The notes under the pieces were generated by a model that was not told where the DNA came from, did not search any database, and was given only the letters and a program-made list of their open reading frames with translations. From NCBI GenBank assembly GCA_029834535.1, contig JAQMWT010000104.1, positions 48,269-112,268 on the forward strand: a stretch of DNA of 64,000 nt. The letters run 5' to 3'. The DNA is from Chrysophaeum taylorii. Its lineage: Eukaryota; Sar; Pelagophyceae; Pelagomonadales; Pelagomonadaceae. A program made the position numbers and the translations under genes. Positions 21,637 through 63,936 of the stretch are shown piece after piece. Within the stretch, counting starts at the first letter, position 1. The number at the start of each line of letters is the position of its first letter.

Positions 21637-21642
21637 GTAATC

Positions 21643-25277: not shown

Positions 25278-28200
25278 CTCCTTGCACGGCTGCAATGGCC
25301 CCGGCACTGAAACCTCGTTGATTGACGGTGGCGCATCTTTTTGCTTTACGCGCACCATTCAGAATTTTGTTCCCGAGACCATACGCCGAATTCCCGAACA
25401 CACCATTCATATGGGACGAGGCACTCTTACCAGTCACTTTATCGGCGTTAAACCGTTGTATCTGCAGGCTGCAGGTCTCTCTTCAAAGGACACAAAAGAC
25501 AACACAGGTTACGTTTTATATCTCGTATTTATGGTAGTCCCGCAATTCCGACAAGGTCTTCAAGTTCTTGCAACATCCCAGCTCAAAGCTCTGCACGTAC
25601 AAGCAACAGACCCGCCACTGCCCCACGAGCCCTACCTTTATGAGCTCTTAAAATCCTCGACCTCAGACCCCCACAATTACGCAACACTTATAGGAAAGAC
25701 CGCCGTCGTACTTGCCGCTCGCAAGCCTAACGGCCTGTTGTCCCTGCCATCCCATCCCCGGCAAACATTCGCCACTGTGGTTAGCTTTCACACAAGAAAA
25801 CGAATGTCACTCCAAGATGAGATTGCACACATCACACAGCATGTCGCAAAGACACGCTCAAAATCGCACACGCTTGACTTCGCGAAGTTACATAATAATT
25901 CCATGTATCTTACCGAGCTGCTCAACATCCAATCTCCTGTCGTCCACTACGCCTTCAATGGCTCCGCAGACCTCTCTGTGCAAACACAAACCCCTCTGCT
26001 CAAAACAGCCATTATTGCAGGTGGACTTCACCAGGAAGGTTTCGACACTTTTCGCAAACGATTCGACAAACGCCTAACTGTCGTAGTCACCTGTGAAATC
26101 AACGATATCCTGCGCACCCGTGCGCAACACCTCTTCCCGCATGCCAAGCACTATGCGGACCTCAGAAAACTCAATGCCGCACTCCAAACCGGCAAAATAC
26201 GACTCCCTACATTCGACCTGGCAGTTTTTACACTGCCCTGCCAACATCTGAGTGCAATGAAAGACTACGACGGTTATCACACTAAGGTCACCGCCGACCC
26301 TTTTGTCAAAGAACAACTCCGCTTCGTTCGTTGCACGCTCCCGACCTATGCCATTGTCGAGAACGTCCCTCCCAACCCCCGAACTCACCATGAGTATGCT
26401 CAACTCGCCAAAGGTTATCAGCGCTTAGGCTACTTCCGCCACTCCGGCGTCTACAATGCCTCTGCTTTTGGTGATGTCATCAGCAAGACACGCTATCTCG
26501 CTGTGTATGCCCGGCACCCGCTCACCGGCTACAACCTCGAGAAAACCGCCTCTCCTTGGTTAACCTCGCCTCCGAGCATGGTTCCTCTCCTGGATCCCAG
26601 TCACACCATCCCTGACGATCTCTGGATCGCCAAACCCGCCCTTCGTGGTACAGTGCCCCGTTCCACATTGGACTACTACCAGCACAAGGCCACCTACTCC
26701 TACAAGCCCGCAAACGCCTCGAAACTCTCGATTTCCGAGAATGCCCGCATCTGCCAAATGCTCGCACGTCTCACCAAGCCCTTCACGGATCTCGGTCTAG
26801 ATGCCGACGGCACCCCCTACGCCACAATGGCGTCCATTTCCAACCTACTGGTTTTCACGCTCCTGCACAACCATTTGTCGCAACACCCCACTCTCGCCGC
26901 TTGGAACACCATCCGCTGTTTTCATGCCTCAGAGTCTCAATGTGCTTACCATTTGGATGGAGCCATCACCAGCACCGCCGCTACTGCCGTCGCCTGTGGC
27001 TACTTCCCGCGCGCCTCCCTCACCCTCCATTCCAGGCCCCCTAAGACTTTGGACTGTTCCCATCAACCCGCAGTCTTCTCCCCAACGCACTCCTTTTCCC
27101 TGGATGTTCCCAAGGGCACCGCCTTTCTGGTCGTCGCTTACACCACCTCCTTGGCCGCCGCTCACAGCTGTTCGCGCCCGTCCACTTGGGTCCACTATAT
27201 GAATCGTTCGCATCCTGGCTTTGCCGCGATCGACTCACAAGGGCGAATTGCTCTCGATGACCCCAAGGGACTCGTAATGTCCAAAGCACGTCCCACTTAC
27301 GCGGACTATGTCGGCCACATCGGAGACACGCTTCAGAAGAGCACCAAGTGCTACTCGGTCACTGGCTCGTACCCAACCAACACGAGCTACTCCAATGCCT
27401 TGCTGCTGATCTCTCCAGACCACATCCGCTATGCGACCCTCAACGAAATCGCAAAGTTTGGACACCACTCGGACCCGGAACTGCTCCGACTATTCAAACA
27501 GCACCCGCCGTACTTCGCGTTCAAGGCACTGGCCAACGCCGTCCCGCACCACATGTTGCAGGCAAAGTACAGCGCTGTCCTCGCATTCCACGAATCGCAC
27601 CACCACGTGAACCTTCACGTCGAATGGGCTACAATACGCAATGGCATCCCCAGCCCTGGAGACATCCACCAGGTTGCAGAATTCTTCTCAGCCATCTCCA
27701 GCCGTCTCCTAGCAGAGGAAGACCTGAACCTCACCTCCCTCTTCAATGCCGTTGCAGATGCTCACCATGATGCGATCCGCAAACCAAGCAAATCGACAAA
27801 CCTCGAGACGCTTCTTGCCGAGGCAACCGTTGCTAAGATCCGAGTCGACAAGCGACCCAGCCCCCCCAGCGCTTCGACTGCCGCTCTGCCTCCCTTGCAC
27901 CAGCCCGGCACCACTCAGCACGCCAAAAGAGTGCTTTTGGTCACTCGCTGGCACCGCATACACCACCAGCAACCAGAGATTCTTCGCCGCACGATTGCCG
28001 CTAATGTAACGAATCTCCGCCCAGGTGATGATCGGTATCTGCAAGACTGCAGCGAATGCAAGCGCTGTCAATCGCATGTCAGCTTCCGTCACAAGAACAC
28101 TTCCTGGTCACAGGACGAACTGGCCTATGCTCCTGGCCAACACCTCCACATGGATGTGTCATACCCGAGCATCCACAAGTGCTACGGCGGATTTCGCTAT

Positions 28201-39331: not shown

Positions 39332-40276
39332 TCAGCTCGCGGCAAACCAAGCCTCCCCACGACGTTCAAAACTGTCGTCATAGCAACGAGGGTTACAATA
39401 TCCTTTATCCGTGGATGTGCGCCTTGAAATAGAAATACGGAGGACTCCTGCTCCAAGAATAAAGGCAGTGCAAACCACTAAAGAAAGACGCCTTGAGCGG
39501 ACCGTACATGTCCTCGTTGCTTTCTGGACACAATTAACTGCCTCATTTGATTCCAACGCGTCGCGAGGTTGACATGCAGACATCGAACACTCCCTTGCTG
39601 AAGCCAGATCAGCAGAAAGCATGTCACGCTCAGCCGTCAAATTTACAGTGAACGCAACAAGATCATCATACTTTTTTCTGAGTGCTACTATCTCTGCAAA
39701 CATGGCTTCGGGAGTTCCAGGGATAGGTGCAGGGGTCACGTGCTCCAGAGTAAGCTTATCCATAAACCCCTTCCTTGCAACATCAGGATCTCCGTACTTG
39801 CCATCAGGATCTCCGTACTTGCCCGCTGCATTCATTTCGGGATAACAGAATTCCACCGTAAACTTCTTCGAGTTAATGTCCCTCTTGTCTTTGCTGCTGA
39901 AAACGCCGCTTATTGCATCTGCAAACTCATTTGACGATTTACCCTCTAGTTGGCGCACAATTAAACTGTCGAGGAATAAGCATTGCACCAAGAATTTGTC
40001 TTGACACTTTTCAGGGCTATACAACTTGGCTTGTACCAGTAGGTCTTTTTTCTTTACTTTAACTACGATGATTGTCACTTCTGTACACTCGCCTTGAACC
40101 ACGACGCCGTGATTGGGTTTCACCAAGTAGCGATCAGGAGTGGTTGTTTTAACTTTAAAGGCGACAATCCCATCTGAAACATTGGTTACACGCAAAGTTG
40201 CCTGAGCCTGCATCGTGTCACTCAATGTAAACGTTAGAGTATTGTCTGGGGTGAACTCTACCGGTGGTGGCGCCAT
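39332..40276 (-). CDS. MSP-domain (VAP-like) membrane protein
   Basis: VAP proteins sit in the ER membrane and recruit FFAT-motif partners at membrane contact sites. The N-terminus is an MSP domain: EFTPDNTLTFTLSD, then VAFKVKTTTPDRYLVKPN (the signature region), to about residue 110. A central part carries a duplicated hexamer (GKYGDPDGKYGDPD, about residues 150-163), a helical stretch (EIVALRKKYDDLVAFTVNLT) and one hydrophobic segment near the end (LSLVVCTAFILGAGVL). The start is taken at MAPPPVEF (40276) rather than the upstream ATG at 40306, because MSP proteins begin close to the fold; total 314 residues. About 30 residues follow the membrane segment, more than in typical tail-anchored VAPs, so the C-terminus could be mis-read. 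No intron is needed. Confidence 0.8.
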   Translation of the reverse strand: MAPPPVEFTPDNTLTFTLSDTMQAQATLRVTNVSDGIVAFKVKTTTPDRYLVKPNHGVVVQGECTEVTIIVVKVKKKDLLVQAKLYSPEKCQDKFLVQCLFLDSLIVRQLEGKSSNEFADAISGVFSSKDKRDINSKKFTVEFCYPEMNAAGKYGDPDGKYGDPDVARKGFMDKLTLEHVTPAPIPGTPEAMFAEIVALRKKYDDLVAFTVNLTAERDMLSADLASARECSMSACQPRDALESNEAVNCVQKATRTCTVRSRRLSLVVCTAFILGAGVLRISISRRTSTDKGYCNPRCYDDSFERRGEAWFAAS

Positions 40277-40774
40277 CGGCCGACTGGAATTATGAATGCA
40301 CACCACCGACTAGCACCATTGGGGTATTTTCCTCTAGCTTTGTAGAAAAACTGAGTCAGCTTGACGTCATAAGGCTTGGAGAGAGAGAGATTCTGACGTT
40401 GCAGAGCATATTTCAAAATCAGGATCAGCACCCTCTGGTCCTATTCCCTGCTTCTCCGGAGGACTACTGCGCCGAGTGCGGTCGTGCGAGGGGGGGACAC
40501 GTCGCCGAACCTCTCGTCTTGGGCTACGACGCGCGCCGGGGCACATCGAGACCAGCGGCACTCGTTTGAAAGCCGTCGCGAAAATCCGTCCAAACCCTAG
40601 CTCGGCACGTTTGAGGCCGCCCTGCCCGAGCGCCGAGGGCCTTTACTTACTCCGCTGAGCCACGCCGTCAGGACCTTGTTCCGGACCTGGTGTCAGCTTG
40701 GGTAAGTAAAGGCTTTCCATCGCGACCCGCTACACTCGGTCGAACACGCGAGACGCATGCCGCGAACGTTCGAG
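40277..40774. other. upstream region of the MSP gene and target of the composite LTR insertion
   Basis: About 500 bases with no supported gene. The last five bases, TCGAG (40770-40774), are repeated at 50109-50113 on the other side of the TRIM/gypsy composite. Confidence 0.5.
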
Positions 40775-41191
40775 TATAGCGGTATAAAAGTGTGTATGGG
40801 CGGCTTCTCCGGATTAGCCTATTTGGACCATACACTTCTCGCTACATAAAGCTGTAGTAACCGCCACAGGCGCCCCCTTTTTAAGAAAGGACGCCGACCC
40901 CGGCGGCATTCTCAGATTCGATCGCTCGCCACAGGCGCTACCATGGCGCCGCCTCGGCGTAAATTTGGAGGCTATTTCGTCCCGGCCAGAAACGTATTCC
41001 TCGACGGTCTGGACACGGGGGAAGAGTAAGAAGACATATAAGTCAGGGGTAGATTTGAACCAGGGACCATGAGTTCGGTCGCGAATCCTCCGCCATCTAT
41101 AGCGGTATAAAAGTGTGTATGGGCGGCTTCTCCGGATTAGCCTATTTGGACCATACACTTTTCGCTATATAAACCTGTAGTAACCGCCACA
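40775..41191 (-). mobile_element. TRIM-like miniature LTR element, 417 bp
   Basis: Two 94-bp direct repeats (40775-40868 and 41098-41191) read on the minus strand as TGTGGCGGTTACTACAG ... ACCGCTATA. Two bases after the 5' copy comes TGGCGGAGGATTCGCG, which has the form of a tRNA primer-binding site. Just before the 3' copy lies a purine tract, AAAAAGGGGGCGCC. The internal part is only 229 bp and has no coding capacity. The LTR start TGTGGCGGT is shared with the gypsy LTRs, suggesting mobilisation by gypsy enzymes. Inside the LTR a foldback (AAAGTGTGTATGG with CCATACACTT) is conserved. Confidence 0.8.
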
Positions 41192-41193
41192 CC

Positions 41194-41516
41194 TGCGGCA
41201 GGAAAGGATTATGCGCGCCGACTTCTTACCCTGCTTCGACGGTGCCCTCGACGTCTCGAGGGTGCCGAGCGGGTTGAGGTGCGCTTCCTTCCTGTCGATC
41301 AACCTTCAAACTGTCCACGAGCTTCAATCCCAAGACTCGTGAAATGATTTATGGTCGAGATTAGTCGATTTGAAGAAGGGGAACGCCTGTTGGCGTTGTA
41401 ATATGTGCGTCAGGGGTTGAAGTAGAGTCCAGTAAAGAGTCCAGTAAACGGGAAGTGGGGTAGAGAACTCGATAGAACTAAGGGGTAAGGATGGCGGTGT
41501 GAGGGTTACCGCCACA
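41194..41516 (-). repeat. gypsy 3' LTR
   Basis: 323 bp; minus sense begins TGTGGCGGTAACC after the purine tract GCAGGGGAGTCC and ends CCTGCCGCA. Confidence 0.92.
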
Positions 41517-41545: not shown

Positions 41546-44500
41546 TCAGCGACGGCGGGGGCGCGATTGAAGCGAGCTTCGGCGCGGACCGTCGGGGGAC
41601 GGGACTTGAGTGCGCGTCTGGTGAGCGCGTTGTTGAGCTTGGATTTGTTCTTGTTCTTGGCGCGCGCGATGCGCGAGGGTATCTTTGACTCGCTGGACGA
41701 TCGGGTGAGGAATCGATTTACCCTGGAGCTTGAACCGGGGAACCAGGACGTCGATCTCGTCCGGGGCGAAGTCGGTTACGCAAGGGGTGCACTGAGGCGT
41801 CAGCTTCTCGGGGCGAGTGAAGCTGCGACCGAGTGCCGTCTTGAATTCCGGGCTCAGCGTGCGACCTTCAAGTGGCGAGGTCGGGTCGAAATACGATGGG
41901 TCGTCGCGCGGGCCCAAGTCGGAGTAAAAATGGAGCGCGACTCTGTCTTGAAGATCATCATGATCCTCGAAAACCTCGGCGACATAAAGCTTCTTGCGCC
42001 AATCGGGGTCTCGGGCCGACGGGATGCGGAAAATGACGAACTTGCCGCGCTCGTAATCGTCGCGGAACCCGGGGCTCGGACGACGGATCGTGGCGTCGAG
42101 CGCGGGAGGCATAGATACCGGGGTGATCTGTTGGACCGATACGATTCGCTCTTCGGTGGCTCCGTAAACCGACCGGATCCTGTACGAGACGGGTGATAGG
42201 CGCTCGGTGATGAGGAAAGGGCCACGCCACTCCGGTCGCAACTTGTTTTGGGACTGCGGAATGTACAGCAGCACGTGCGAGTTGACGTTGTATTCGACAT
42301 CGACGTGCTCAGCGTCGTACGCGAGCTTCTGCGGCTTCTTGGCCTGCTCATGTGCTTTCGCGACGACCTTTGAGTAGTACTGGAGGTTTTGCTTGATCTC
42401 CAGGAGCGCGTCTGATCGGGGTCGCGGTAGAACAGGATCCAGCTGAACTAACAATGTGTAGTCTGTGGGCAACATCGGCTGCCGGTTCAGGCGCAACATG
42501 AATGGGGAGATTTGCGTGCCGGGAATGAACTTTCGGTTGTAGCAGAACGACACGTACCGGACGAAGGCCGGCCAGTCGGTGATGCTGCGCCTTTCAAGGC
42601 GGCGGGCCCGGAGGAACGCCTTGAGGAGTCGATTGACTTGCTCCGCGGGGCTCGCTTGGGCGTGGTATGGTCTCGGCGTCCTGTGCTTTCGGCCGGCCCG
42701 GAACGCTATGGCGTCCTCTTGCGACGGGTTTGGCCCTCTGTCTGCAACCAACTGATCGTTGAGCGGACGTAAGTCGACGGCCGCGCGGGGAGCGTTAGAT
42801 GTCCCGAGCTCGGCCCCTTTCTTCGGAAGCAAGAAGATCAGGAACCCCCGAGGGGAGTTGGCGGGTCTTACGACTCCGTCTCGGCGCCATTCGGAAATCT
42901 GCTTGCGAAGATAGTCGATCTTGGCTGGAGCGAGGTGGTACGGCGACGTCTCGATGGGCTTTGGGTTCGCGTCTTTGAATCGGAGGGACACCGGTCGAGG
43001 GTCCACGGTCCTCATAATGGGATCGAAGGAGGCCCAAGAGTATCGAACGCAGTGCGCCAACATGAGTTTGGCATCTTCGTCCAGGTGAGGGTTATTCGGG
43101 ATGCCTAGCTCCCCGACGGCCTTGTCCCCTTCTTTCGTGGGGTTCTTGCCGACCATGGCCTCGTTCCCTTTCAGATGGTTGGGCTGTTGCGGTAGCGGTG
43201 CGCCGTCTTCGTCCCTGGGTGCGTTTTTCCATGGCACGTCAAACCATTCCTCGTACTTGAACCGGACGAGCTCTTTGGTCTTATCGCTCGTTGGTTCCTT
43301 GGTTGGTTTTCCGTCCCTTGGTTCGACTTTCAAGGTTGCATCGTTTTTGCTCGCGCGGGTACCCCCTTGGGAAGATGAGTGCATCGTCCCTGATGCAGCG
43401 GGCTTCGGAGCGGTCAAAGAAAGGTCCGGTGGTTGCCATTTCGATTTATCCTGGAGGTCGCGGTTCGGCACCAAGTGAATTGCGCGAGTTGAGACGTTCA
43501 CGAGGGCGCTTCGGGGCTCGGGTGCGGTGGTTCCCACGCGGACGGGGGCGGAGGGGACGCGCTCGATGATGTATGTTTCAGAGGGTCTGTTGGTGGGTAC
43601 GACTACGTTCGGGCGCGCGATTCCAACGTTGCGGAGCGGGGGCGGGAGTGCGTTGTGTGCGTGAAGGGCTATGTATGCCGTGGAAGACGGGGGTATCACG
43701 GCCGCTAGATGCTTCATTCGGTCCGTGACTGTGAGGTGACCCCATGCGAGATCGCTCGGCATTGTGAGAGCCTCCGCGAGCATGTCTATTTTGAGTGCTT
43801 TGGTGTCCGACGGCGTGGGTCCTGTTCGCACTCCGTTCCGCGTGGTGGTGTATATCGGTGCTGTGGCCTCTCGGATGCATCCAAAATTGTTGCGCTGGAT
43901 GAGAGGCTGCGCAGGGTCGAGTCCCAGTTTGGCGGCGAAGGTATCTTGAATAGTGCCGCACGTTTTGGGACGTCGAATGAGCTCGAGAGGCCAGCTCGTG
44001 ATGATCATGCGTCGACGGGTGCTCATGAGGTCCGGCGTGTTCGTCCACAGGTCGACGACGGTGATGAACCCTTGCCTCAGCGTGATTCTCGAGCGGATGG
44101 AAGGTTCCTGCTCGATGATCCAGCGTCCTACTCCGGAGAGCTGAAAAAGCTTGATGGTCCAATTGGTTGCGGAGACTCCTTTCCCAGCGTCGCGGGCCGT
44201 AAGGTTGCACAGGGAGGAATGGACGCATGGTGGCGTGCCAACGAAAAGGGCCATGGGCCATAGGCTTTCATGCAAGTAACCCTTGACCAAAGAAAGGACC
44301 CTGTCATACCGACCGCCGAGGGTGTGCTGGACGACCGGTATTCCTGGAAAATTTTTCTCATGGACTTCTTTGGCGGTGTCGGATGCGTCGATGACGAGCA
44401 CGACCTTGTACGCGGTTCCGAACCATTCGTTGCTCCGGTATATACCCTGGGTGCCTCCTCCAATCCCGCCGAAGAACATTACTACGGGCGTCACGTTCTC

Positions 44501-45646
44501 CGGGATCCAGGAGAGCGCCTGGTGCTTGTCGATGATCGCTTGTTCAGCGGTTCGAGACTTCAGCGCTTCTTGCGTCTGTGGGGCTTGCAGTCGCGGCTTG
44601 ATTGATGATGTTCGAAGTGCTTGACCGTCTGTTTCTCCGGGGTCTGGAGTTGGGTAGCTGGTGATCGAGACCGTAAAGGAGGCCGTGCCCTCGTGCTCGC
44701 TTCTGTGCGGGTTTCCGAGGTCGGCGCTTGGCAATGGGGCTGTCACCCGATCTTCTTCTTGGCAGTTGATAATTTCCCCCCGCGCGAGCTCTTGACCTGG
44801 GATGATCGACATCGGCGTGTCGTCCCTCGACGACACGGCCACTGCGGCCGCGGTCGGGTCGGAGCGGTCACACGTCGAGCAGGTCCCGGCGACGACGCCG
44901 AGGTGATCCACGCTAGGCGCGGTGGCGGCGAAGGCTTCTCCGGGCTTCAGCGCTTGACTCAGCTTGACCGGGATGTTGTGGGTTCGACCGGGGTCGATGC
45001 GCTGGGAGCCGGTTGCGAACGCTCGGATCTCGGGCGCGGACGTTTTCGGGTCGTTGCTCGGCATAGACGGGTCCTCGGCCAAGGTTACGGCGGCCGAAGC
45101 TCGCTGAGGAGGCGGCGAGAGGAGTTTCCCCGCGTACGGGAGCTTCATCATCTGGAAGACTGTTTGGTTTCGCGAGAGGAGATTCGGTCTCGGGGATAAT
45201 CCGACAACGCCCAAGGCTCGAATGTCGCGGGCTCCCAGCAGAATGTTGTTGGTGTCTGCCACGATTGCGACTACCGGTACGGCCATTTCGCCTGAAACGG
45301 ATACTCGCAGGGCGATCCACTCTGAAGTCGAGGTCGTGTTCTTTCCCGATCCGAAGAGCGTTCGCTCGAAAGGCAGCTTGCCGCTATCCAGCAACATCCC
45401 TCGCCTTCGTATTAGGCGAGCGAGGTCGCGACAGATGTAGGTGACGTCGGCCATTCCGTCCTCACCGATCACCGTGGCATACGATGAGTCGCCTGGCTTA
45501 TTGAACACGTGGATGGGCATGAACGTCAGGCTGCCGGCTTCCCAGCAATTAAGGACGCGCAGGTCTCTGCCGATCGTTTCGGTGTTGATGGGGGCAAAGG
45601 AGGAGTGCATGCGCATGGCTTCGTCCTCCGTCCCTGCCATCGGCAT
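41546..45646 (-). CDS. gypsy pol-like ORF: protease-like, C5-methyltransferase, RT stub fused to integrase end
   Basis: One uninterrupted ORF of 1366 codons. N-terminal region: GEDGMADVTYICRDLA and VADTNNILLGARDI, the layout of a retroviral-type protease with the usual D-S/T-G replaced. Residues ~387-665 are a C5-methyltransferase-like domain. From ~840 comes the reverse transcriptase start (SLRFKDANPKPIETSPYHLA; AAVDLRPLNDQLV), cut after DAIAF near 42700 and continued in frame by the last part of the integrase core (PYHAQASPAEQVNR). The C-terminal domain follows (DWRKKLYVAEVFED). RT active site, RNase H and the first two integrase acidic residues are absent. The start at 45646 is the first ATG of the open frame; upstream frames belong to other ORFs. 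Confidence 0.88.
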   Translation of the reverse strand: MPMAGTEDEAMRMHSSFAPINTETIGRDLRVLNCWEAGSLTFMPIHVFNKPGDSSYATVIGEDGMADVTYICRDLARLIRRRGMLLDSGKLPFERTLFGSGKNTTSTSEWIALRVSVSGEMAVPVVAIVADTNNILLGARDIRALGVVGLSPRPNLLSRNQTVFQMMKLPYAGKLLSPPPQRASAAVTLAEDPSMPSNDPKTSAPEIRAFATGSQRIDPGRTHNIPVKLSQALKPGEAFAATAPSVDHLGVVAGTCSTCDRSDPTAAAVAVSSRDDTPMSIIPGQELARGEIINCQEEDRVTAPLPSADLGNPHRSEHEGTASFTVSITSYPTPDPGETDGQALRTSSIKPRLQAPQTQEALKSRTAEQAIIDKHQALSWIPENVTPVVMFFGGIGGGTQGIYRSNEWFGTAYKVVLVIDASDTAKEVHEKNFPGIPVVQHTLGGRYDRVLSLVKGYLHESLWPMALFVGTPPCVHSSLCNLTARDAGKGVSATNWTIKLFQLSGVGRWIIEQEPSIRSRITLRQGFITVVDLWTNTPDLMSTRRRMIITSWPLELIRRPKTCGTIQDTFAAKLGLDPAQPLIQRNNFGCIREATAPIYTTTRNGVRTGPTPSDTKALKIDMLAEALTMPSDLAWGHLTVTDRMKHLAAVIPPSSTAYIALHAHNALPPPLRNVGIARPNVVVPTNRPSETYIIERVPSAPVRVGTTAPEPRSALVNVSTRAIHLVPNRDLQDKSKWQPPDLSLTAPKPAASGTMHSSSQGGTRASKNDATLKVEPRDGKPTKEPTSDKTKELVRFKYEEWFDVPWKNAPRDEDGAPLPQQPNHLKGNEAMVGKNPTKEGDKAVGELGIPNNPHLDEDAKLMLAHCVRYSWASFDPIMRTVDPRPVSLRFKDANPKPIETSPYHLAPAKIDYLRKQISEWRRDGVVRPANSPRGFLIFLLPKKGAELGTSNAPRAAVDLRPLNDQLVADRGPNPSQEDAIAFRAGRKHRTPRPYHAQASPAEQVNRLLKAFLRARRLERRSITDWPAFVRYVSFCYNRKFIPGTQISPFMLRLNRQPMLPTDYTLLVQLDPVLPRPRSDALLEIKQNLQYYSKVVAKAHEQAKKPQKLAYDAEHVDVEYNVNSHVLLYIPQSQNKLRPEWRGPFLITERLSPVSYRIRSVYGATEERIVSVQQITPVSMPPALDATIRRPSPGFRDDYERGKFVIFRIPSARDPDWRKKLYVAEVFEDHDDLQDRVALHFYSDLGPRDDPSYFDPTSPLEGRTLSPEFKTALGRSFTRPEKLTPQCTPCVTDFAPDEIDVLVPRFKLQGKSIPHPIVQRVKDTLAHRARQEQEQIQAQQRAHQTRTQVPSPDGPRRSSLQSRPRRR
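43650..44490 (-). other. C5-cytosine methyltransferase-like domain of gypsy pol
   Basis: VVMFFGGIGGGTQGIYRSN is a good motif I (F-x-G-x-G-G). VVLVIDASDTAKEVHEKNFP fits motif II. LFVGTPPCVHSSLCNLTARD is motif IV, with the catalytic Cys at residue ~474. GRWIIEQEPSI is motif VI (ENV as EQE, Glu at ~512). STRRRMIITSWPLE is motif VIII. A C-terminal part with REATAPIYTTTRNG and then KHLAAVIPPSSTAYIALHAH resembles motifs IX and X. All are in the canonical order within about 280 residues. The frame is intact. A large spacer for target recognition between VIII and IX is short, so substrate specificity may be loose. Confidence 0.85.
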
Positions 45647-46017
45647 CGATACGTGCGCGCGTCCCGCGAAGAATCGGTGGGCTATCGACCACCGGCTCTG
45701 TCGGCTCGCTCGCGGATCGGCGGGTAGCTCTTGGATTCTCCGCTGTAACCGACGGCCTCTTTCTTCGCGCTCTCGGACCGGAAGGTCGGGAATCTTCGTT
45801 CCTCGTCTTTCCGAGGCTCCTTTCGTTCTTCGGGTGGCTCGGGCTCCTTGTCGATTGCCTTATCTTCGTTTTGAAGAGGAGGACTCTGCCTCCGTCTGGG
45901 GTCTTATTTCGGTTTCGTGCCGTGGGTCGGTTCGCTCGGGACTCTTCTTGTTCCAGAGCCGCTTGACTCTCGTCCCCCTCCTCGACCGTCGGCGCGGAGG
46001 TCTTAACCTGGCGCTTC

Positions 46018-47784
46018 TTAACCGCGTGCGGGACGGCGATCCGTGAACTTCCTCGAGGCTTCTCTCTTCCCGAGCTTCGCGCGGGGGCCCCCTGTCGGTT
46101 TCGGCTGTTTGTTCCGATCGGCGCGGGGTCCCTTGTCGGTTTCGGCTGTTTGTTCCGATCCTTCCGGTTCCGGCGTGTTCGGTTCCTGGGCGGGTTCCTC
46201 GACTGGTGGCGACTCGCTGTTTCCGCTGCCGATATCGCGGCCGGGTCCGCGGCGGGTACACCCTTGGGGAGAGTGCGGCGTCGCCCTCGACGTTGAACCG
46301 GGGTTGATATCTTTCTCGGGCGTGCTGCCGTCGTCGTCATGGTCGTTTCTGTCGGACGCGTCGCCGTCCGCATCCGTCGGGTTTTGTCGGTGCGGGTCCG
46401 CGAATGCTTGGAGAAGGGCATCTGTTATTGCTGTGGCGGTTGCGGGTCCGCGCGGATGACTGAATAGGGCAGGGAACAGTTCTCCGGGTTGACTTTCCCG
46501 TTCGTCCGAACTGCCGCCGTCCGAATCGGTGTCATCGTCGATGAGGGCGGTGAGTTCGTCATTGACGGCGGCGTGCGGATTTGCCTCCGGTGATCCCGTT
46601 CGGTTAGCGTCGGTGTCGGAGTCGTCGTCGCTGTCGGACACGTTCTGACGAGGTCGGAGACGTCGTGTCCGACTCGTGCGGGACGTGCGTGGTGGCGGCG
46701 CTGATTCGACTGGCAACATCCTCTGGGGCGTGCGAACTCGAAGTTTCGGAGGTGTCGCTGGCGACCGAGGATGTTGCGTCCGACTCGTACCGTCTCTGCT
46801 CGAGGTCGGCGGCGTTTCGGAGGTTCGACTCAACTAAAAGCGATGGCGCGTTCTCCCCGGGATCTGGCCGATCGGCATTGGGCACCTGGGAGGTGAGCGA
46901 CCGCGGGTTGACCGTTCGCTCCGAATCGACGTCCGCTTCGGGGGTCCGGCATTTTCCTCGTGCACGAGCGGAGCTCCTAGCGAGGTGAGCTTGGCCTGTG
47001 CGATTGCGATCTCTGCTTGCCTTTTGTCGAGCTCATCCTCCGGGACCACGTCGAGAGCAGTTGGAGAGGCGAACGTCGAGTCGGCCGGGGCGGTCCTCAC
47101 GCTCGGCTTTGGCGGTGGTTCGCTCGGTGGTGTCACTGGGGGCACAAAAACCGGCTGCGGTGCTTCAAAAAACTCTCCGTCGTTGCTGCTGGCCGACCCG
47201 AGGGACGTGGCGTCGGTGAAGGAGCATCCGGCGGTTCCGTCCCTCGATTGAGGCCCAAAGAAAGACTCCGCGTAGTCCATCGAAGATTGTGTACTCGAAC
47301 TCGAGGAGTTTCGCGCTGCGAACATGCACTCGACGATCGCTTCGACCTGGTTGACCTGCACCACGCCAGCGTCCGGCGAGGAGGTGGCGTTCGCATTCGC
47401 GGGCGGTCGTCTGTCGCTGTAGGTTCGTGCTGCTCTCTGCTCTCTCTTCCAGGCTCCGTAAGGGATGGGTTCTTGTCCCTGCCGTCGCCGCGCTTTCATC
47501 GCTTGCTTGTACGCGTTCGGGCGCGGGCATCGGAGGGAACCATCCGCGTTTCGCGTATGGTCGATCTTGTAGTTTCCGCAGTCGCACATCTTCCGCATCC
47601 ATGCGTCCTTGTTTCGCATACTGGGCCTCGGATCATCGTCGACCTCTGGCTCTTCCTGTTGCGTCGCGTATGCGCCGGGTTTCTTGCGGTCGCGCGGGTT
47701 GCGTGGCGGCGGGTCGGTGGTTTTACCGGGGTGCGCCTTCTGCCACGCGTTGAACTGGATCTCGTGCCGGAGGATTAGACGCAT
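46018..47784 (-). CDS. gypsy gag C-terminal part and linker ORFs
   Basis: Two abutting minus frames. 47784-46834 carries CDCGNYKIDHTRNADGSLRC, a cysteine/histidine pattern that may bind zinc, then a low-complexity part. 46833-46018, in the next frame, is proline-, arginine- and acid-rich (TDSDGGSSDERESQ). They lie between the gag N-terminal ORF and pol. No standard CCHC knuckle is visible. The change of frame at each step could be programmed or decay; the third gypsy copy (59442 on) preserves nothing upstream to compare. Confidence 0.5.
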
Positions 47785-48092
47785 CGGAGAAGGTGTTGTA
47801 CTGACTAGGTTGGTCGCACCGCGCCATGAATCTTTTGTTGCAGCTTTGTCGATGCCAAACCGGCGATCATTTGGTGAATCATCTCGATGCTATCATCGAC
47901 GTTCCCGTCAACGCGGTATAGGCCGTAGCCTCCTTCTGCAGCGACTTGAGGTAGGTCAGGACCCAAGATTCGCCCTCCTTCCTCGGCGTGGTGGCCTGCG
48001 TGATGTTCCGGACCTTGTGGAAGGCCTCCGGTCGCGGCGCGGGCCGGCAGGCTTGGCGGAGCTGCTGGAGGATCCGCTGGACGTGGGAGGGG

Positions 48093-49295
48093 TCACGTCG
48101 CGAAGCTGTCGGATCTGTTCCTTGTACGGCGTTTGGCTGTCGGCGTGGAATTGCAGATAGAACGACTCGGGTGGCCGAACGAGGTACACAGCGCCTCGGC
48201 CGCTAATCGCCCTTCCTCCAACGTTGGTAGCACGGCCTGTCGCACGTCGTCCGCGAGGCCAAACGACAGCGAGCTAATAGAATAGTGGTCCTTCGATAAC
48301 TCTCCGACGATGAGGGCGGCCTCGTGATCGAACTGCCGCTGGTCTTTGCCCTCGATGTCCAGCTTGATCATCTCCAGCTTGAGACGTCGGTGCCTCGGGG
48401 CAGCCGCGTCCTCGTATCTTCGGGAGGCCAGGGCGGCGGAGGGCCCTTGGCCCGTGGCGGCTCTCACCAGTGCGGCGATGATCTTGTCGGCTTCCGTGGG
48501 TTCCTTCTCCTCCTCGTGGGCTCGCGGACGATTCGCTCGCTCCGCGCGTCGGACCGGCGGTTCGCTGCTCGGCGGCTCGGAGTCGGATTCGTCGTGGTTC
48601 GAGTCTCGAGGCGATTCGGGTCGCGGTGGTTGCGCTCGCTGCTCTCGACGCGTCTTTAGCGAGCGCATTTCCTCCCGAAGATCTTGGATTTCGGCCGCTG
48701 CCGCTTCGCGAGCGTGCTCCGCGTCTTTGCGAGCGTGCTCCGCGTCTTTGCGAGCGTGCTCCGCGTCTTCGCGAGCGCGTCGGAGCTCGTTCTGAAGGGC
48801 TTCCTTCTCCTCACGGGTTGCGGTTTCGAGTTGAGCCGCCGCCGTCTGTTCGATCTGCGCCGCGATTTCTTGGGCGATCAAGCTGCGCTCTTCGTCGCGC
48901 TCTTGTGCCTGCTTCTGTATCTCCTCATCTTGTATTCGGATCCGCTCTTGCAGCAGGTTTCGCACCTCTTCATCTCGCCGGTTGCGCTGCTGCAGCTGGT
49001 CTTGGAGCAGCGATACCATCTCCCGCAGCTCGCGAACTGCTCGGGAGCTTTCGGCGGCGCGCTCATCGGCGGGTTCGGTTCGAGTCGTGGTCGGGACGCT
49101 TGGCTGCTCGCCCGTCAACTCTTCGTCTTTTCTCTCTTCGGCTTCTGCCGGTCGTTCGTTTTCTCGGCCTGGCTCGTGTGCGGCGGCCGGCGCCGGCGCG
49201 GGTGGCTGCGTCGGCGGGGTCTCTTTTTCTTCCGCCCCTTCTCTCCCGGCGTCGGGGGGGACGTCTTTCTCTCGTATGGTGCGTCGCTTCGGCAT
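48093..49295 (-). CDS. gypsy gag N-terminal ORF (coiled coil)
   Basis: 400 codons from MPKRRTIREKDVPPDAG. A disordered proline/glutamate N-terminus, then a long coiled coil (about residues 95-215; LREMVSLLQDQLQQRNRRDE), which includes three near-perfect 7-residue repeats of ARKDAEH type (48713-48776). A basic/acidic linker follows, then a helical gag-like part (DKIIAALVRAATGQ; LKLEMIKLDIEGKDQRQF). The open frame ends in a frame change near 48150; YLQFHADSQTPYKEQIRQL in the neighbouring frame is its natural continuation. Gag would form the particle shell. Confidence 0.7.
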   Translation of the reverse strand: MPKRRTIREKDVPPDAGREGAEEKETPPTQPPAPAPAAAHEPGRENERPAEAEERKDEELTGEQPSVPTTTRTEPADERAAESSRAVRELREMVSLLQDQLQQRNRRDEEVRNLLQERIRIQDEEIQKQAQERDEERSLIAQEIAAQIEQTAAAQLETATREEKEALQNELRRAREDAEHARKDAEHARKDAEHAREAAAAEIQDLREEMRSLKTRREQRAQPPRPESPRDSNHDESDSEPPSSEPPVRRAERANRPRAHEEEKEPTEADKIIAALVRAATGQGPSAALASRRYEDAAAPRHRRLKLEMIKLDIEGKDQRQFDHEAALIVGELSKDHYSISSLSFGLADDVRQAVLPTLEEGRLAAEALCTSFGHPSRSICNSTPTAKRRTRNRSDSFAT

Positions 49296-49764: not shown

Positions 49765-49783
49765 GATCTCGTATCCTCCACCA
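49765..49783 (-). promoter_or_regulatory. gypsy primer-binding site
   Basis: Minus strand TGGTGGAGGATACG, two bases (GG) after the LTR end CCGCA. It begins TGG, as expected for pairing with a tRNA CCA end. The donor tRNA could not be identified. Confidence 0.65.
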
Positions 49784-49785
49784 CC

Positions 49786-50108
49786 TGCGGCAGGAAAGGA
49801 TTATGCGCGCCGACTTCTTACCCTGCTTCGACGGTGCCCTCGACGTCTCGAGGGTGCCGAGCGTGTTGAGGAGCGCTTCCTTCCTGTCGATCAACCTTCA
49901 AACTGTCCACGAGCTTCAATCCGAAGACTCGTGAAATGATTTATGGTCGAGATTAGTCGATTTGAAGAAGGGGAACGCCTGTTGGCGCTGTAATATGTGC
50001 GTCAGGGGTTGAAGTAGAGTCCAGTAAAGAGTCCAGTAAACGGGAAGTGGTGTAGAGAACTCGATAGAACTAAGGGGTAAGGATGGCGGTGTGAGGGTTA
50101 CCGCCACA
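49786..50108 (-). repeat. gypsy 5' LTR
   Basis: 323 bp, the same ends as the 3' LTR, followed on the plus strand by TCGAG (50109-50113). Confidence 0.92.
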
Positions 50109-52545: not shown

Positions 52546-55500
52546 CGCCCTCGCAGATTGAGCTCGGTGATGAGCGAAATCTGGAACAAACAAAACAAAT
52601 GTCTGGCCAGAGACAAATAGACGTCGAGTTGTAAGGAGACGTGGAATGAGAAGTGTGCGAAGTGCACGAGAAAGATAGAGTAGAGCGGAGTAGCAGGTGA
52701 GTGTGATTGAGAAAGGAGAAAGAGCGCAAAGTTGAACGTGGAATTGGGAAACAAAGTGAAAAGGTCAAAGCAAGAGGAGGCGAATAATCGAAAAGGGAAA
52801 AGGCCTCGATCATAAAGAAGAGGAAACGTGAAAGAAGATGCTAGGTGGGCTAGTGACGAACTATGGCGAATTCTATACGAGAGATCGGATCATCATCTTG
52901 TTCAGTGACTGATGAAAGAAGGATGTGATGACAATATCGTGAAGAATAAGCGGGTGAAAGAGTGTCATCGTCGAAGTCTAGAGTCGCATGCATTGTCGTG
53001 GGTGTTCCGTGACATAGGACGACGGTGCGTGCGGGTGGATAAATCCTAAATGACTGAGGGATCCTCATAGTGGAGCGGGTGGTCTAACTGATAACGATAG
53101 TAGGGATCATGGGTCAGGCAGTCGTGAAGTGCACAACAGACCAATGATTGATCGAAAGGCGAATAGCGAGAGTGGCCGTAGGAATGAGATTCTATTGTGA
53201 CTAACGTTGGGCTAGAAAAGGTGTGACGATGTGACTGAGCGCCAGCGTTGTCCCATGAAGAGATATGGCCATTTAACCACATCGGTTTCGACATGGTAAG
53301 GTAATCGTCGTAATGATAGCGAGTAAGGCGGAGCTGTTCCTGGAAGATGAGAGAACCATCATTGCTTTTCACATATGCGTCGAAGCTGTCGTCCTGAGTG
53401 TAGCGTGGGACAGCTGAAGCTAAACTATGCGCGTCTAACGTAATATGCGGATAATCATAGTGTGATGTTGCTATCGGGACATCGTCGTCTGGGGGTGGCC
53501 ATAAATATGAAAACTATAAATTTGCCGTAGACCTGGAGTTGTAGTCTGGTGGAGGTTGCGATTTGCTATCATCGAAAGATGATTGGACTCAGACTGAGGT
53601 TTGCGAGTGTATCGCGTATGATGGTGGATGCAGGCGTGTGTCCTGTGCAGAAGAGTCGGCGCCCTGTGCAGAAAATGCAGAAGAGGCAGGCAACAGGAGA
53701 AGATGCCGGAAGGCGATGGACTGTTCGAAGATATTGTCCTTGATGAATTGCTCGAAGATATTGTCTTTGCCTGGGGGAGAGTTGACTTCGAAGGTATGGT
53801 CAGAGTCGCATCTTTCGTGTTCTATTCGGCAAAGTAAGCCTGAGTCGTGATAATCGACTGACCCAGTATTTATTTCATGTCCGGCGTCGTTTTCACCAGA
53901 ATCAAAATTCCCTTTATGCACGAGCGCGAGGGATCGTGGTGCATCCCTGGTGAATCGTGCAGTGACTGAAAGGTGTGACATTCGACAGGAGGGTGTTGTC
54001 GATATGCGAGAGCTGTACAGTATATAACGTGTAGGGAGCGTATGTTTCAAGATAGGGTTAATCTGTGGACGGGAAATGTATGAAGAGTGAACATGATGTG
54101 AGGTAATGTCCATAATGCGAGAACTGTCCGATACGCAGTCATGCGAGACTGTGACTAGCAGCGAGTGTGCGGGAATGAAGGAAGAGATAGGCATGGCAGT
54201 TGACTCCCCTTGAATCGTAACACAAATGCGTGGGGCTAGCGGTGCGCGGCAGTGACATCCGGTAGAATGCTGAGAGCAGAGCGCGTGTCCAACCTGTGGA
54301 GATTGGGGGCTATCATCGCGGGTGCTACGGAAAATGTCGACTGGGTGCGAATCGCAATGGTGGCTGTTGGGCTCAGAGTTCTGCAATATGGAACCTGCAG
54401 TGTGAACGGAGAGGAGCGAACCGGGTGCGTCATGAGAGCGTAATACGCGAGTGCAGTCTGGGCTGTGTCCGAAGCAGAATTCTGACAGTAATGTCGACAG
54501 ATGCGAAACGTGACCAGAACTGGGCGAGGATGTCGCGTGAAGTCGTGTTGTAACCGAACCATAGTGGTGCAGAGTTTCAACGTCAAGCATGGTGCTGGGA
54601 GGGACGTTAAAAGAGGTGAGCGAATAACTCAACGTGCGGCTATCATTTAGTGGCGGGCATTTGTTGCGCGAGACTGGCGATAACTGCGACATATGGCGTT
54701 GGCGTGACAGAACTTCGTTTGCATATGGCAGCATGCAGGATGAAATCGAGCGAGCTGGAACTTGAGAGGTGTGACCGGCAAGAGACTGACGGAAGAGCGT
54801 GGGATGATCGGAATTTCATCGACGACGGAACTTAGTGTCATCACAAATCGTCGGAGATTGAGTCGTCGGGAGTGAGCTGAAACTTGAGAGGTGTGACCTG
54901 CAAGAGACGGACGGAAGAGCGTGGGAGGCTCGGAATTGCATTGATGACGGAACTTAGTGTCATCACAAATCGTCGGAGATTGAGTCGTCGGGAGTCGCGT
55001 CGAAGCGGGGAGGAACGACGAGTGCTCATCAGGTCTTGGCGTGTTACAGAGGTCATTGGAAAGAGGGACTTCGTTTCGTGCCTTGAAGTGAGTTCCGATG
55101 TAGCCAGAGTAGCCATAGGCGACGTGACTGATACGAATCGAAACAGATCCGTGTCGGCGGTGGGAAACGAATGCGCCCTCGTAATTCGAACTGGGTGGAA
55201 TCTTCGAATTGCCATTGAGGCGGAGAGACCGTGGTTGCGGGACGAGCGCAGAGCCAGGCGGCGGTCGGAGGGGGCACGTAAGCGGTGACTGAGATGACAG
55301 TGTTCTGCTTATCCTGAACCAAAAGGTGTTCGGGCATCGTACTGTGCAACAAGCGAGCGTGCGCTCGGTTGACTGTGAGTGTACCATGAGGATGGCGCAA
55401 TGTTGGTAGTCTAAACCGAGAGGGGCTGGGAGCGTGCCGTCGGAGTCCTAGGAGCCTGTGCGGTGTCTGGGCTGTAATCGGAATATGACGTATGGCGTCA

Positions 55501-59441: not shown

Positions 59442-62400
59442 ATGCTTGCTCCATTGCCAACCATCCGAGGGTATGCCAATGTGAATTTATTCGACCCTCG
59501 CAACGGGAAATTACGCTATGTGCCTCCGATTGAGAAGTGTCAGAATTTGTTGCCAGCGAAACTTGGGAATGAGGAAGCAGCCGAGGCGCCGAGCCCACCC
59601 GAGGTCGCGATGGAAAAAGAGAGAGAGCCACCAGACAAAGAGACCGCGGCGAACGCCAATATAGATTCAGAGGCGAGACGCGGGACGCCCGAGATGGCAG
59701 CGGTGACGATGCAGATGCCGGGCGACGCGAATCCGGAGGGACGATGCCATCATACTGCCCTTTCGCCGCGCGACGGGGAAAAGATCGAGCAAGACCTCAT
59801 CACCATCGGATTTCTGGACCCTGGCACACTTACGTCCATAGTTGGACGTATTTACCGACGAAGAGACGGGCCGAAGTTCGCAAAGACTTTAGGCATTGAT
59901 GGAATGGCTGATGTCTCCTATATTTGTTGTGGGATGGTCGACAAACTGGCGAAGGATAATATAAATCCTCGACCAAGGCGATCTCCCAGTCGAGCGCACC
60001 CTGTACGGGTCGGGATTGAATAAGACGACTACCCACAAATGGGTCGCATTGCGAATTGCGCTCGCGGGCGACGTGGCAGTCCCAGTGGTTGCCATCGTGG
60101 CCGATACTAATCATTTATTTCTGCTGGGAGCGCGCGATATTCGGGTGCTGGGAGCCATAGTGGACTACCCGCGAAGTCGCATTGCGTTTCTCCGCACACA
60201 AGTCGCCTATGGGCGCAAGAAGTTAAAGGTGCAGGATCGACGAGTCGATTCTCCGGTTTTGACGTTCAGATCAACTTATGATGAGCGCAACCCCGTGGTT
60301 GTTCAAGTCTACGGGCAACAGCACCATGCGATGCAGAAGAGCCTGAGCACGGTCGAGGACCGCGTTTACGCTCGCTTGTGCAAGATTGAAGACCTCCAGC
60401 GTCCACCGCCAGAACGAGCGGCGGCTTCGACGACTTGGGGAGTCCCGACAGATACGCCCTCTCGATGCTCGAACAGCGATGCCCATGAAGTGGTAGCCTA
60501 TGCCGCGCGCACGATGAAGGTCGAGCCTGGGCGCACTTACACGCGTGCGTGCCAGTCACTCTTTCAGAGCCCATTGAAACCGGGCAGGTTTTCGTTGCTA
60601 CATCCTCTGGATACGAGCAACTTGGGGTAGTCGATGGAATGTGTTCTTCTCCCGAAGATCACGACAAGTTCGCCGCTCGAGTGGCGATCTCCTCTACCCA
60701 GGATGTGCCGAGTGTGATTACTCAAGGCGAAGTTCTCGCTTTGGGCGATATAGTGTGTTTTGATGACGAGCTGAACGTTGAGACGGTCGACGAATTAACG
60801 AAGGACTGTGGAGCCGAATATGACAAGGCCAATCTATCGTTTACTGTTTCGGTCACAAGCCATATGACTCAAGGCGACGCGGTTCCCGAACCGATGCTTT
60901 TGAGCTCGGTGCAGAAGGCGGCTCCTTCTGCCGATAAGGATAGGAACTCTCGCCAAGAATCGCTCGGTAACGACGCTTTCGACCGACGAACCGACGAGGA
61001 GGAAAAGAAGTGCCGAGAGTTACAGAAGGCGAGATTCGCCGAAGATTTGAAAAGGTCCGGCTGCCGATCACGTATCGCAAGGTTGTGATGCTATTCAGCG
61101 GCGCTGGAGGCAGTACTTTGGGGCTGCAACGAGCGAATGAGTTGTGCGGGACGTCGTTTCGAGTCGTCATTGCTCTTGACTCTTCAACAGTTGCCAACAA
61201 GATTCATGAGAAGAATTTTCCGAAGGTGCCTGTGGTTCAGCACACGCTCTGGCGGACGATATGACACGACCCTCCGATTGATCAAGGATTATTTGCCTGA
61301 AGCGGAATGGTCATCGTCGATGTATCGCGTCTCCGCCCTGCGTTCATTCAGCACTATGCAACTTGACGTCCAGAGGTGTTGGCAGGGGAGTTACGGCCAC
61401 TAATTGACGATGGGCTGTGCAAAATGGCTGGCTTCATGATGTGGTTGATTGAACAGGAGGCGTCCATTAGTTCTTATATAGCGCGCTTGACGACACATAA
61501 GGTATATTGTGTACGTCGTCAATTTTCATGATATCACGCCCACTTTGATGAGCTGTCGCATGCGGTTGTTGGTCTCCAGTCACCCACTGCACCTGCAACA
61601 GGCTCCGAAGACATGTGCGAACATGCAACAGAAATTTGCTGCAGCATTAGGTTATGCAGATGAACGCCACCTGCTCCAGCTGAATAGTATAGGCTCGTCT
61701 CGAGACGCAACAGATACGGCTTACACCGCTACGCGAGTTTCTCTTCGCTTGGGACCGCACCGCTCGGACACTCAGCCTTTGACTCTCAAGATGACGACAG
61801 AGTTGCTCACGATGCCGCTGGCCATGATTGGGCTGGTTCTAAGACAAATTCGTGCAAGCACCTAGCGTCTGTCGTCCCTCCGACACTCTTGCGATTTTAG
61901 CAGTCGATCTGCACAACTCCGTGACCAGAGGTTTCCGCCAAAGTGGCGACGTCCTGCCGACCGCGTTGAGCCCTACAGATCGATCCTCTGAAAAGTATTT
62001 GCGAATTGCCGACACCACCCTTCGTCACGTACAGGTCCCGCTGTTGAATACGCGCACTCGTGTCGTTAGTTTCCGCTTCCAACAGATGCGCGGGGACGGC
62101 TCATGCTTTTCTGCTGCCTTCCCCGACAATCGAAAGTGGACGTTCCGCCGGATCCTGAACCTGACCAGGAGCCGAAAGTAAGGAGCGAGCCGAATGTGCG
62201 CGTCAAAGGTGAAAAGATCAATAAGAGCCACCCTGAGGCGAGGTTCAAATACGAAGAGAAAGTTCGATGTGCCATGGAAGGATGCGCCGCGCGACGCGGA
62301 CGGTGCACCGTTACCGCAGACTCCGGAGCACGTCAAGGACAATGATGCGATGAAAGTCGAAACCTGACGAAAGAAGGTCGAGAAGGCTGTCGAGAACTGA

Positions 62401-63936
62401 ATTCCCGACAACCCGCATCTGATGAGGATGCGAAGATGATGTTGAGCCACTGCGTATACGCGTGGGCCTTTTTGATCCGGATTATGAGACCCGTGGACTC
62501 GCCACCGGTTTCTCTACGATTAAAAGACGCAAACCCACGACCGATCAAGATGACGCCTTACAGGTTGACGCCAGCAAAGCTCGAGTGTCTCAGAAAGCAG
62601 ATCACTGAGGGTGTCGCGATGGAGTCATCCGACCGGCGAACTCCGTGGGGATTCCCTGTACTGATGCTGCCTAAGAAGGGAGCAGAGGGGACGTCGAATG
62701 CTTTTCGTGCTGCAGTTGACTTGCGTCAGCTCAATGATCAGCTGGTCAATGACAGTTGGCCGAATATTCGTCAAGATGATGCTTGGCTTTTTTGCCATGC
62801 GCCGTTGGCGGACGTGCATTGATATTCGATGGGGTTATCACAACTACGTTTGGACGCCGCGCTCAGGACGCCGTTACGATGGTTAGTCCACTTGGAGCCC
62901 ATAGTTCTTGCGCTTGCCTCTGGGAGGAAAACAGCAGGAGCTCTCTTCTGTAAGCAGATGGCTAGCGATTTGTCCACATGGATGTATATGGACTTGGTCG
63001 CGTTTGTCGACGATATTATGATGGGATCGGATGAACTCCACCGTCATTTACAAGTTTGATTGAAGTGCTGTGCCATTTAGCGCAAGCGAGGATATAGTGG
63101 ACGAACTTCGAAGTTCCACCTCCTCAAGGATGAAATCGAGTTTCTGGGACATTTCGACTCCGGAAGGCTTGAATCCAAGACATCCCAAGACGTTGCAGAC
63201 ATTTGACTCGGAAGGTGCCGATTCCCGGTACGTTGCGGCACACGATTCCCCCTGAACGTCTCCAGATTCGACTTTTCATCGGCATGGCAACTATTGCCGC
63301 CGATATGTGAAGAATTAGTCGAAGATTGTGGAGCCGCTGAGGCGATTGTGTCTTGAAGGCGCTAAGTTTGAGTGGACGCCGGAGTGACAGAAGGCATGGG
63401 ACACGATCATCGAAGCGGATACTCGCGGAGTTTATCATCCTGACTACGATCTTCCTTTTCAGATCCGCTCGGATGCTTCCAAGGATGGTCTGGGCGCGTA
63501 TCTTTTTCAGCTCGTGGAAGTCGAGGACGAAACCGGCAAGGTGACACGAGAGAACGAGAGATTGAGTATTGGAGCCGAGCTGTGCCGAATGAGATACGGA
63601 ACTATGAGCCTCGCCGGCTAGAGATACTGGCAGTTATTCTTCTCTTGGGCATTTCCGCTCTTATATCGAAGGTCACAAGACGATCCTTGAAACATATCAT
63701 CGCAACTTGACTTTTTTACGAAAGGCGAAGCACTCGTCTGGGCAGTTGGCTCGATGGGCGATGCGGCTCGCCATTTTGATCCTGAATTGGGTTACAAACC
63801 AGGAAGTCGCCGGGAATGAGTATCCCTGACTGTCTCTCGCAATCCTATAGACTGCGTCATCGAGACGTGATGAGTTTGGTGAACCCTTGAACCACGCGTA
63901 TCTAGTGTGCCAAGAACTTCCTCGGCCTGTTGATGG
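59442..63936 (+). mobile_element. decayed Ty3/gypsy element with methyltransferase domain (no LTR seen)
   Basis: Contains, in order, the protease-like region, the methyltransferase, RT, RNase H and the beginning of the region seen at 1-160. This is the part of pol that the element at 41194 has lost, so it fills in the family's gene order. The gypsy similarity stops at 63936 (cctgttgatg). The 5' part and both LTRs are absent. Confidence 0.85.
59442..63936 (+). pseudogene. gypsy pol: protease-like, C5-methyltransferase, RT, RNase H (broken)
   Basis: GIDGMADVSYICCGMV and VPVVAIVADTNHLFLLGARD (protease-like) are followed by KVVMLFSGAGGSTLGLQRAN (methyltransferase motif I, 61080-61140). SPPCVHSALCNLT comes after a frame change (motif IV, about 61330-61370), then WLIEQEAS (motif VI, 61441-61464) and SCRMRLLVSSHP (motif VIII, about 61553). 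After a spacer come the RT start (KDANPRPIKMTPYRLTPAKL, 62527; AAVDLRQLNDQLVND, 62710), FVDDIMMGSDE (RT active site, 63004) and FQIRSDASKDGLGAYLFQ (RNase H, 63459). Many stops and frame changes. The catalytic Cys and Glu positions of the methyltransferase can still be read. Confidence 0.85.

Follow-up and report, generated by a model that had tools for sequence, protein, structure and literature searches.

A C5-cytosine methyltransferase-type domain with an intact-looking active site was found in the Pol of a Gypsy clade of Chrysophaeum taylorii, where selection appears to have kept it and where it probably methylates the element's own cDNA. The stretch of 64,000 nucleotides that was analysed (the window) contained one Gypsy copy with the domain on the minus strand, a decayed Gypsy copy on the plus strand and a copia element with another methyltransferase (Table 1).

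Table 1. Features of the two Gypsy copies and of the copia methyltransferase in the window
Feature	Positions	Strand	Basis
5' LTR	49782..50108	-	98.5% to 3' LTR over 327 bp, 5 mismatches
Upstream coding region, several ORFs	45549..49295	-	ORF list; presumably gag
1366-aa ORF with protease-like region, methyltransferase and an RT remnant joined to the C-terminal part of integrase	41546..45646	-	ORF translation, Pfam
Protease-like region, DGMA ... LLGARDI, without canonical DTG/DSG	45209..45559	-	read by eye
C5-cytosine methyltransferase-type domain, lineage A, 288 aa	43643..44506	-	translation, alignments with lineages B and C
Motif I, FGGIGGGTQG	44444..44473	-	translation, alignment
Motif IV, PPC, predicted catalytic cysteine	44225..44233	-	Cys in 41/42 aligned A/B copies
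Motif VI, EQE, predicted catalytic glutamate	44105..44113	-	EQE in 42/42 A/B copies
Motif VIII, RxR (RRR in the window copy)	44009..44017	-	R164 in 42/42, R166 in 41/42 A/B copies
Motif X-like KHLAAVIPP, in the IX/X block	43688..43714	-	alignments
RT N-terminal remnant	42688..42826	-	start set by comparison with RVT_1 of L049
Deletion junction, where the sibling has about 2.0 kb more	42671..42687	-	blastn against L049
Integrase C-terminal part	41666..42670	-	Pfam, comparison with L049
3' LTR	41190..41516	-	repeat comparison
Decayed lineage B Gypsy copy	59595..63934	+	tblastn, L052 ORF as query
Methyltransferase pieces of the decayed copy, different frames	61067..61923	+	frame translations
Copia methyltransferase domain, LPCQ and ENV	25867..27048	+	translation, Pfam

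The Gypsy element and its methyltransferase domain

The domain was found to occupy residues 381-668 of the 1366-aa ORF, which is read from 45646 to 41546; plus frame 1 contained several stops across 43643-44506. The preliminary description had placed a C5-methyltransferase domain at 43650..44490 without naming a strand, close to the limits that we obtained, and the motifs it named (FGGIGGGTQG, PPC and EQE) were all present, accompanied by RRR and the KHLAAVIPP block. The motifs carry the names which we take to apply to the Gypsy domain, motif I being presumably the SAM-binding one.

Three Gypsy lineages, A (the window copy), B and C, were found to contain the domain at the same place in pol. 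In their alignments motif I, the Cys of motif IV, the Glu of motif VI, the RxR of motif VIII and motif X were all present and in order, with FSGAGGSTLG in lineage B and FAGAGGSSLG in lineage C as the counterparts of motif I. Motifs I, II, IV, VI, VIII, IX and X also lined up with those of Dcm, a host Dnmt2-like protein and phage C5 enzymes in a joint alignment, in which the motif VIII-IX region of the Gypsy domain was short. Motif VI of most C5 enzymes is ENV; the Gypsy domain contained EQE instead, also in both aligned lineage C copies, and the Glu was kept.

The order protease-like region, methyltransferase, RT, RNase H and integrase was found along a sibling copy (L049), where the protease-like part lay in a separate ORF, and also in a lineage B copy (L052), all within one ORF of 3063 aa. 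The assignment to Ty3/gypsy was made from the LTRs of the window copy and from the order of RT, RNase H and integrase in L049 and L052. The domain had been placed between the protease-like region and RT, which agreed with our result, the protease-like part being recognised by eye and the RT remnant from L049. No Pfam protease was found in the protease-like region of either the gypsy ORF or the copia element. Three ORFs of the upstream coding region gave no Pfam match, and this region presumably represents gag. On the 3' side the element adjoined an ORF with a major sperm protein domain (39332-40306, minus strand; PF00635, E 3.7e-19).

The ORF had been described as one intact frame of 1366 codons. 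The frame was indeed open, yet pol was not intact because about 2.0 kb of it was absent. In L049, whose domain is 97% identical, the profiles RVT_1, RNase H, H2C2 and rve all scored above cut-off, whereas no RVT_1, RNase H or rve was found by Pfam in the window ORF, the only matches being two integrase C-terminal families, both below cut-off. Nucleotides 4814-6822 of L049 were absent from the window copy (breakpoint 42688/42670); this segment holds the greater part of RT, the RNase H and almost the entire integrase core. The deletion perhaps occurred in two steps, because 23 bases resemble nucleotides 4867-4889 of L049. Having lost this segment, the window copy is no longer able to move by itself.

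A profile search with the window copy alone gave no match to PF00145 in Pfam and none in NCBIfam, TIGR00675 (the dcm model) included; two PHROG DNA methyltransferase families were matched weakly (E 0.005 and 0.012). The profile search suggested in the preliminary description gave matches over the cut-off in the sister lineages and none in the window copy itself. In lineage B, PF00145 was over the cut-off of 22 bits in 8/8 members (27.6 bits for the first, best E 2.4e-6), which are the 8 matches of a 16-member alignment, and in 7/7 members of a second lineage B alignment (27.4 bits for the first). The lineage B match was confined to the motif I end (profile 2-52), and within the long L052 ORF the domain scored 18.4 bits, below the cut-off. 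Lineage C scored 38.7 bits (E 1e-9) in two stretches, one at each end, the best covering profile positions 257-321 (motifs IX-X). The same two blocks were aligned in order with the solved cytosine methyltransferase 8yf3, without significance (E 0.031). The lineage B domain matched the families phrog_116 and phrog_363 (PHROG E 5e-8), and its TIGR00675 scores of 18.8 and 20.1 bits were far below the cut-off of 100.65.

Three protein searches, confined to relatives of fitting length with exact 5-residue words in common, gave no match at E 0.001, 0.1 and 0.01, respectively. A collection of viral contigs contained no match to the Gypsy domain and one weak match to the copia domain (30% identity), and 2 weak phage records were matched by the lineage B domain in tblastn (best E 0.02). 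For a Rossmann-type fold, AlphaFold2 gave no reliable model, the mean pLDDT being 34.0 for the window domain alone and 36.7 with the decayed-copy pieces as separate rows.

A chance origin of the motifs was ruled out, because lineages B and C passed PF00145 and the window domain matched at least 135 places in the genome. The sequence comparisons therefore identify the product of 43643-44506 (minus strand) as a genuine C5-cytosine methyltransferase-type domain, for which catalysis is predicted.

Spread of the domain and selection on it

The domain of lineage A was about 50% identical to that of lineage B over its whole length, and the lineage C domain was 36-37% identical to the window copy. The window domain as query matched at least 135 scored places (E <= 4e-83) and a lineage B query at least 137, which together made at least 183 different places in 70.8 Mb; a lineage C query gave at least 140 match rows in the same 70.8 Mb, some of which were pieces of one copy. 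The counts for all three lineages include fragments, and many methyltransferase copies were fragments or carried stops. The lineage C query was shifted downstream by about 35 residues and so lacked motif I. The two contigs of the pairs C25/C521 and C10/C297 had matches at almost identical places, which suggests duplicated haplotypes, so the copy counts may be slightly inflated.

In a survey of RT, 68 of 111 matches could be paired by place, among the matches listed, with a methyltransferase no more than 2.5 kb upstream. Of the 43 unpaired RT matches, 17 were examined and 15 had at least a piece of the domain (14 of 16, and C681); C681 retained only the last part and L079 nothing but a fragment of about 40 residues in inverted orientation, and no methyltransferase domain was found within 2 kb of L082 and L083. 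Two further copies (L098 and L099), taken from another list of RT matches and not covered before, both contained the domain. Among the copies examined, no Gypsy lineage of this clade was met without it. Its presence in all three lineages ruled out a restriction of the domain to one copy. The domain is a trait of the family, as had been proposed, and its acquisition is most simply placed before A, B and C diverged.

The decayed copy had been said to keep the same motifs. FSGAGGSTLG (motif I), SPPC and EQE were found there; they lay in different plus frames with stops between, and the copy belonged to the sister lineage B and not to the same subfamily. The RNase H/integrase end of another lineage B Gypsy copy was present at 1-2090 of the window (plus strand, 92-97% to the L052 ORF), beside an RT match just left of the window (C104:47084-48184).

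Studying selection, we aligned 42 copies, of which 41 were grouped (15 in A, 11 in B1 and 15 in B2) and L071 was in no group; the partial copies L024-L030 were left out of this alignment, and five lineage A copies with a stop were kept in the omega analysis with the stop codons skipped. The median NG86 omega was 0.231 in lineage A (105 pairs), 0.114 in B1 (54 of 55 pairs usable) and 0.196 in B2 (104 of 105). Between B1 and B2 the median was 0.056 (165 pairs), a rough value because dS was near 2, and between A and B the synonymous sites were saturated. The dN/dS survey proposed in the preliminary description thus gave within-lineage medians of 0.11-0.23 against 1.28-3.91 in shifted frames. In seven open copies omega was 0.22 in the domain, 0.293 in the linker and 0.185 in RT (20, 21 and 20 of 21 pairs, respectively). 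These codon comparisons indicate that the methyltransferase domain is under purifying selection in the compared copies.

Between lineages the domain was found to diverge faster than RT, with identities of 48% against 81% (A-B2), 37% against 62% (A-C) and 82% against 96% (B1-B2). The 48% against 81%, the short VIII-IX region and EQE in place of ENV would suit a degenerate domain that no longer catalyses and now serves in binding or as a spacer. Such a loss of catalysis appears very improbable, as the active-site Cys (41/42), EQE (42/42) and the two Arg (42/42 and 41/42) were nearly invariant in the 42 aligned A/B copies and the Cys, Glu and Arg were also kept in the two aligned lineage C copies.

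Relation to the copia methyltransferase and to known systems

The copia domain was matched by at least 145 rows in the genome, pieces included, so that Gypsy and copia methyltransferases together were present at several hundred places among the listed matches, fragments included. A decayed fragment of the copia methyltransferase, 85% identical to the window copia domain and with two stops, was found at 21622-22053 (minus strand). The Gypsy domain had been called unlike the copia domain, and we found no detectable similarity between them: BLASTP with four queries gave no match below E 5.6, and profile comparison by hhalign gave a probability of about 0.1-0.2%, from alignments poor in diversity. 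The motifs differed, being PPCV and EQE in Gypsy and LPCQ and ENV in copia. The place in pol, which had also been described as different, differed in what follows, namely RT in gypsy and an integrase-like part (by eye) in copia with RVT_2 in the next ORF; the slot after the protease-like region (by eye) was the same in both elements.

In three free trees the Gypsy and copia domains were apart, each on its own long branch, and in two of them the Gypsy domain adjoined the C-terminal parts of two phage proteins (support 55/91 and 90/87). A single capture, common to gypsy and copia and moved between them in the deep past, would account for the shared slot, and one Gypsy and copia clade was not rejected by the AU test (p 0.223, 0.357 and 0.055). 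The failure of BLASTP and hhalign to find direct similarity, the different motifs IV and VI and the separation in all three free trees make this single origin improbable. Independent capture, as suggested in the preliminary description, is therefore likely the better reading of the sequences; it falls short of proof, given that the branches which meet are long and that the AU test leaves a joint clade unrejected. The tree called for there accordingly separated the two domains as non-sisters without excluding a sister grouping.

Gypsy-borne Dnmt3 has already been published as KnitGypsy-Dnmt3 of Klebsormidium nitens (PMC5890265), and the window family is a variant of that theme. KnitGypsy-Dnmt3 has several copies with Ka/Ks < 0.2 and is like the window family in its C5 methyltransferase in the Gypsy Pol ORF, its several copies and its purifying selection (PMC5890265). 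The KnitGypsy domain clusters with Dnmt3 and its repeats are arranged as in DIRS elements (PMC5890265), whereas the window element had plain direct LTRs of 327 bp. The window domain may or may not share the affinity to Dnmt3: no Dnmt3 chain was among the rows of four solved-structure searches, and none of those rows was significant. SymbioDIRS-Dnmt3 and SymbioLINE-Dnmt of Symbiodinium are likewise retrotransposon-borne C5 methyltransferases of high copy number; by their description they are a DIRS and a LINE element and not Gypsy (PMC5890265). Gypsy, DIRS and LINE elements with DNMTs are described and the Copia elements of Symbiodinium are stated to be without them (PMC5890265), and Copia and DIRS elements with DNMT3 are mentioned in PMC12344493. 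Methylases in Gypsy and DIRS elements have been reviewed; counting adenine and cytosine methylases together, such elements are reported from charophytes, stramenopiles and both red and green algae, among others (PMC6338049), which reduces the novelty of the Gypsy domain.

The excerpts of PMC9998398 and PMC3145265 contained no retrotransposon-borne DNMT of stramenopiles, and methyltransferase does not occur in PMC12747079. In the literature outside subscription papers, preprints and Repbase, neither this domain nor a genome with both a Gypsy and a Copia capture was found described. Dcm-type C5 methyltransferases of bacteria and phages have the motif order of the Gypsy domain, and PF00145 was matched by lineages B and C; the Gypsy domain differs from them by EQE for ENV, the short VIII-IX region, its fusion in Pol and scores far below the TIGR00675 cut-off. 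The copia methyltransferase of the window, like that of Gypsy, belongs to an LTR element, follows its protease-like region and is present in high copy number.

The chances appear evenly balanced that the Gypsy domains form an undescribed EQE-form C5 methyltransferase clade, an ancestral and selected component of a whole Gypsy clade, with which a separate copia capture, in the same slot behind a protease-like region, has converged in the same host. In most cases retroelements are themselves targeted by cytosine methylation. A methyltransferase kept under selection in Pol of one LTR superfamily, beside another in a second superfamily of one genome, would offer a natural replicate for what elements gain from methylating nucleic acid, be it protection of cDNA, mimicry of host DNA or self-restraint. 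The open ORFs of lineages B and C are direct material for activity assays.

Possible role of the domain

The methyltransferase would be made as part of Pol, perhaps be released from it by the protease, and be packaged with RT and integrase. It may then methylate cytosines in the new cDNA of the element before or at integration, and the methylated copy could be read as self and be protected or tolerated. We infer this role as the most likely one because of the position in Pol, the constraint on the domain and the published finding that the DNMT of a retrotransposon is capable of de novo CG methylation (PMC5890265).

The substitution pattern was examined in the 14 B2 stretches, which are 14 of 19 lineage B stretches (L052 being additional to the 19). 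The C-to-T singletons per site were 22/346 in CG, 19/239 in CC, 20/255 in CT and 15/315 in CA, with no excess at CpG among the singletons of these 14 stretches, and CpG o/e was 1.04-1.28 in the measured stretches. CpG decay as a mark of the action of the domain was rejected, as it was seen in neither measure. It follows that CpG is not the target, or that the mark is not kept, or that it leaves no mutations; the absent signature speaks against lasting, mutagenic CpG methylation, or for another context.

The domain might instead act once integration is complete or, in trans, upon host DNA or the silencing machinery, affecting insertion-site chromatin or restraining expression of the element itself. 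The constraint fits any selected role, and insertion-site chromatin and slower retrotransposition are named as options in PMC5890265; the place inside Pol would better suit a role in the particle and the copies showed no CpG mutation signature, so that action of this kind appears rather unlikely. Methylation of RNA, either element RNA or a tRNA primer, is quite unlikely. RNA has been suggested for SymbioLINE-Dnmt (PMC5890265), and Dnmt2-type chains were among the top rows of the solved-structure profile searches, but these rows all had E > 0.1 and covered the motif I end only, and in one search another cytosine methyltransferase, 3g7u, ranked above them, also without significance. Methylation of the element's own cDNA is accordingly the role that we favour.

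At least two host-like DNMT genes were recognised in the genome. The first (L001, contig C634) was a Dnmt2-like gene with CQPHTR and ENV, and an ORF on its opposite strand contained a light-harvesting protein match (PF00504, E 1.1e-13); from this single match the host is probably photosynthetic. The second (L002, contig C621) contained PF00145 (E 9.5e-18) in a long ORF. Contig C696 contained eight RVT_1 matches among those listed, which are perhaps group II introns of an organelle. A tandem pair of 122-bp units, 93% alike, was found at 54748-54991 of the window.
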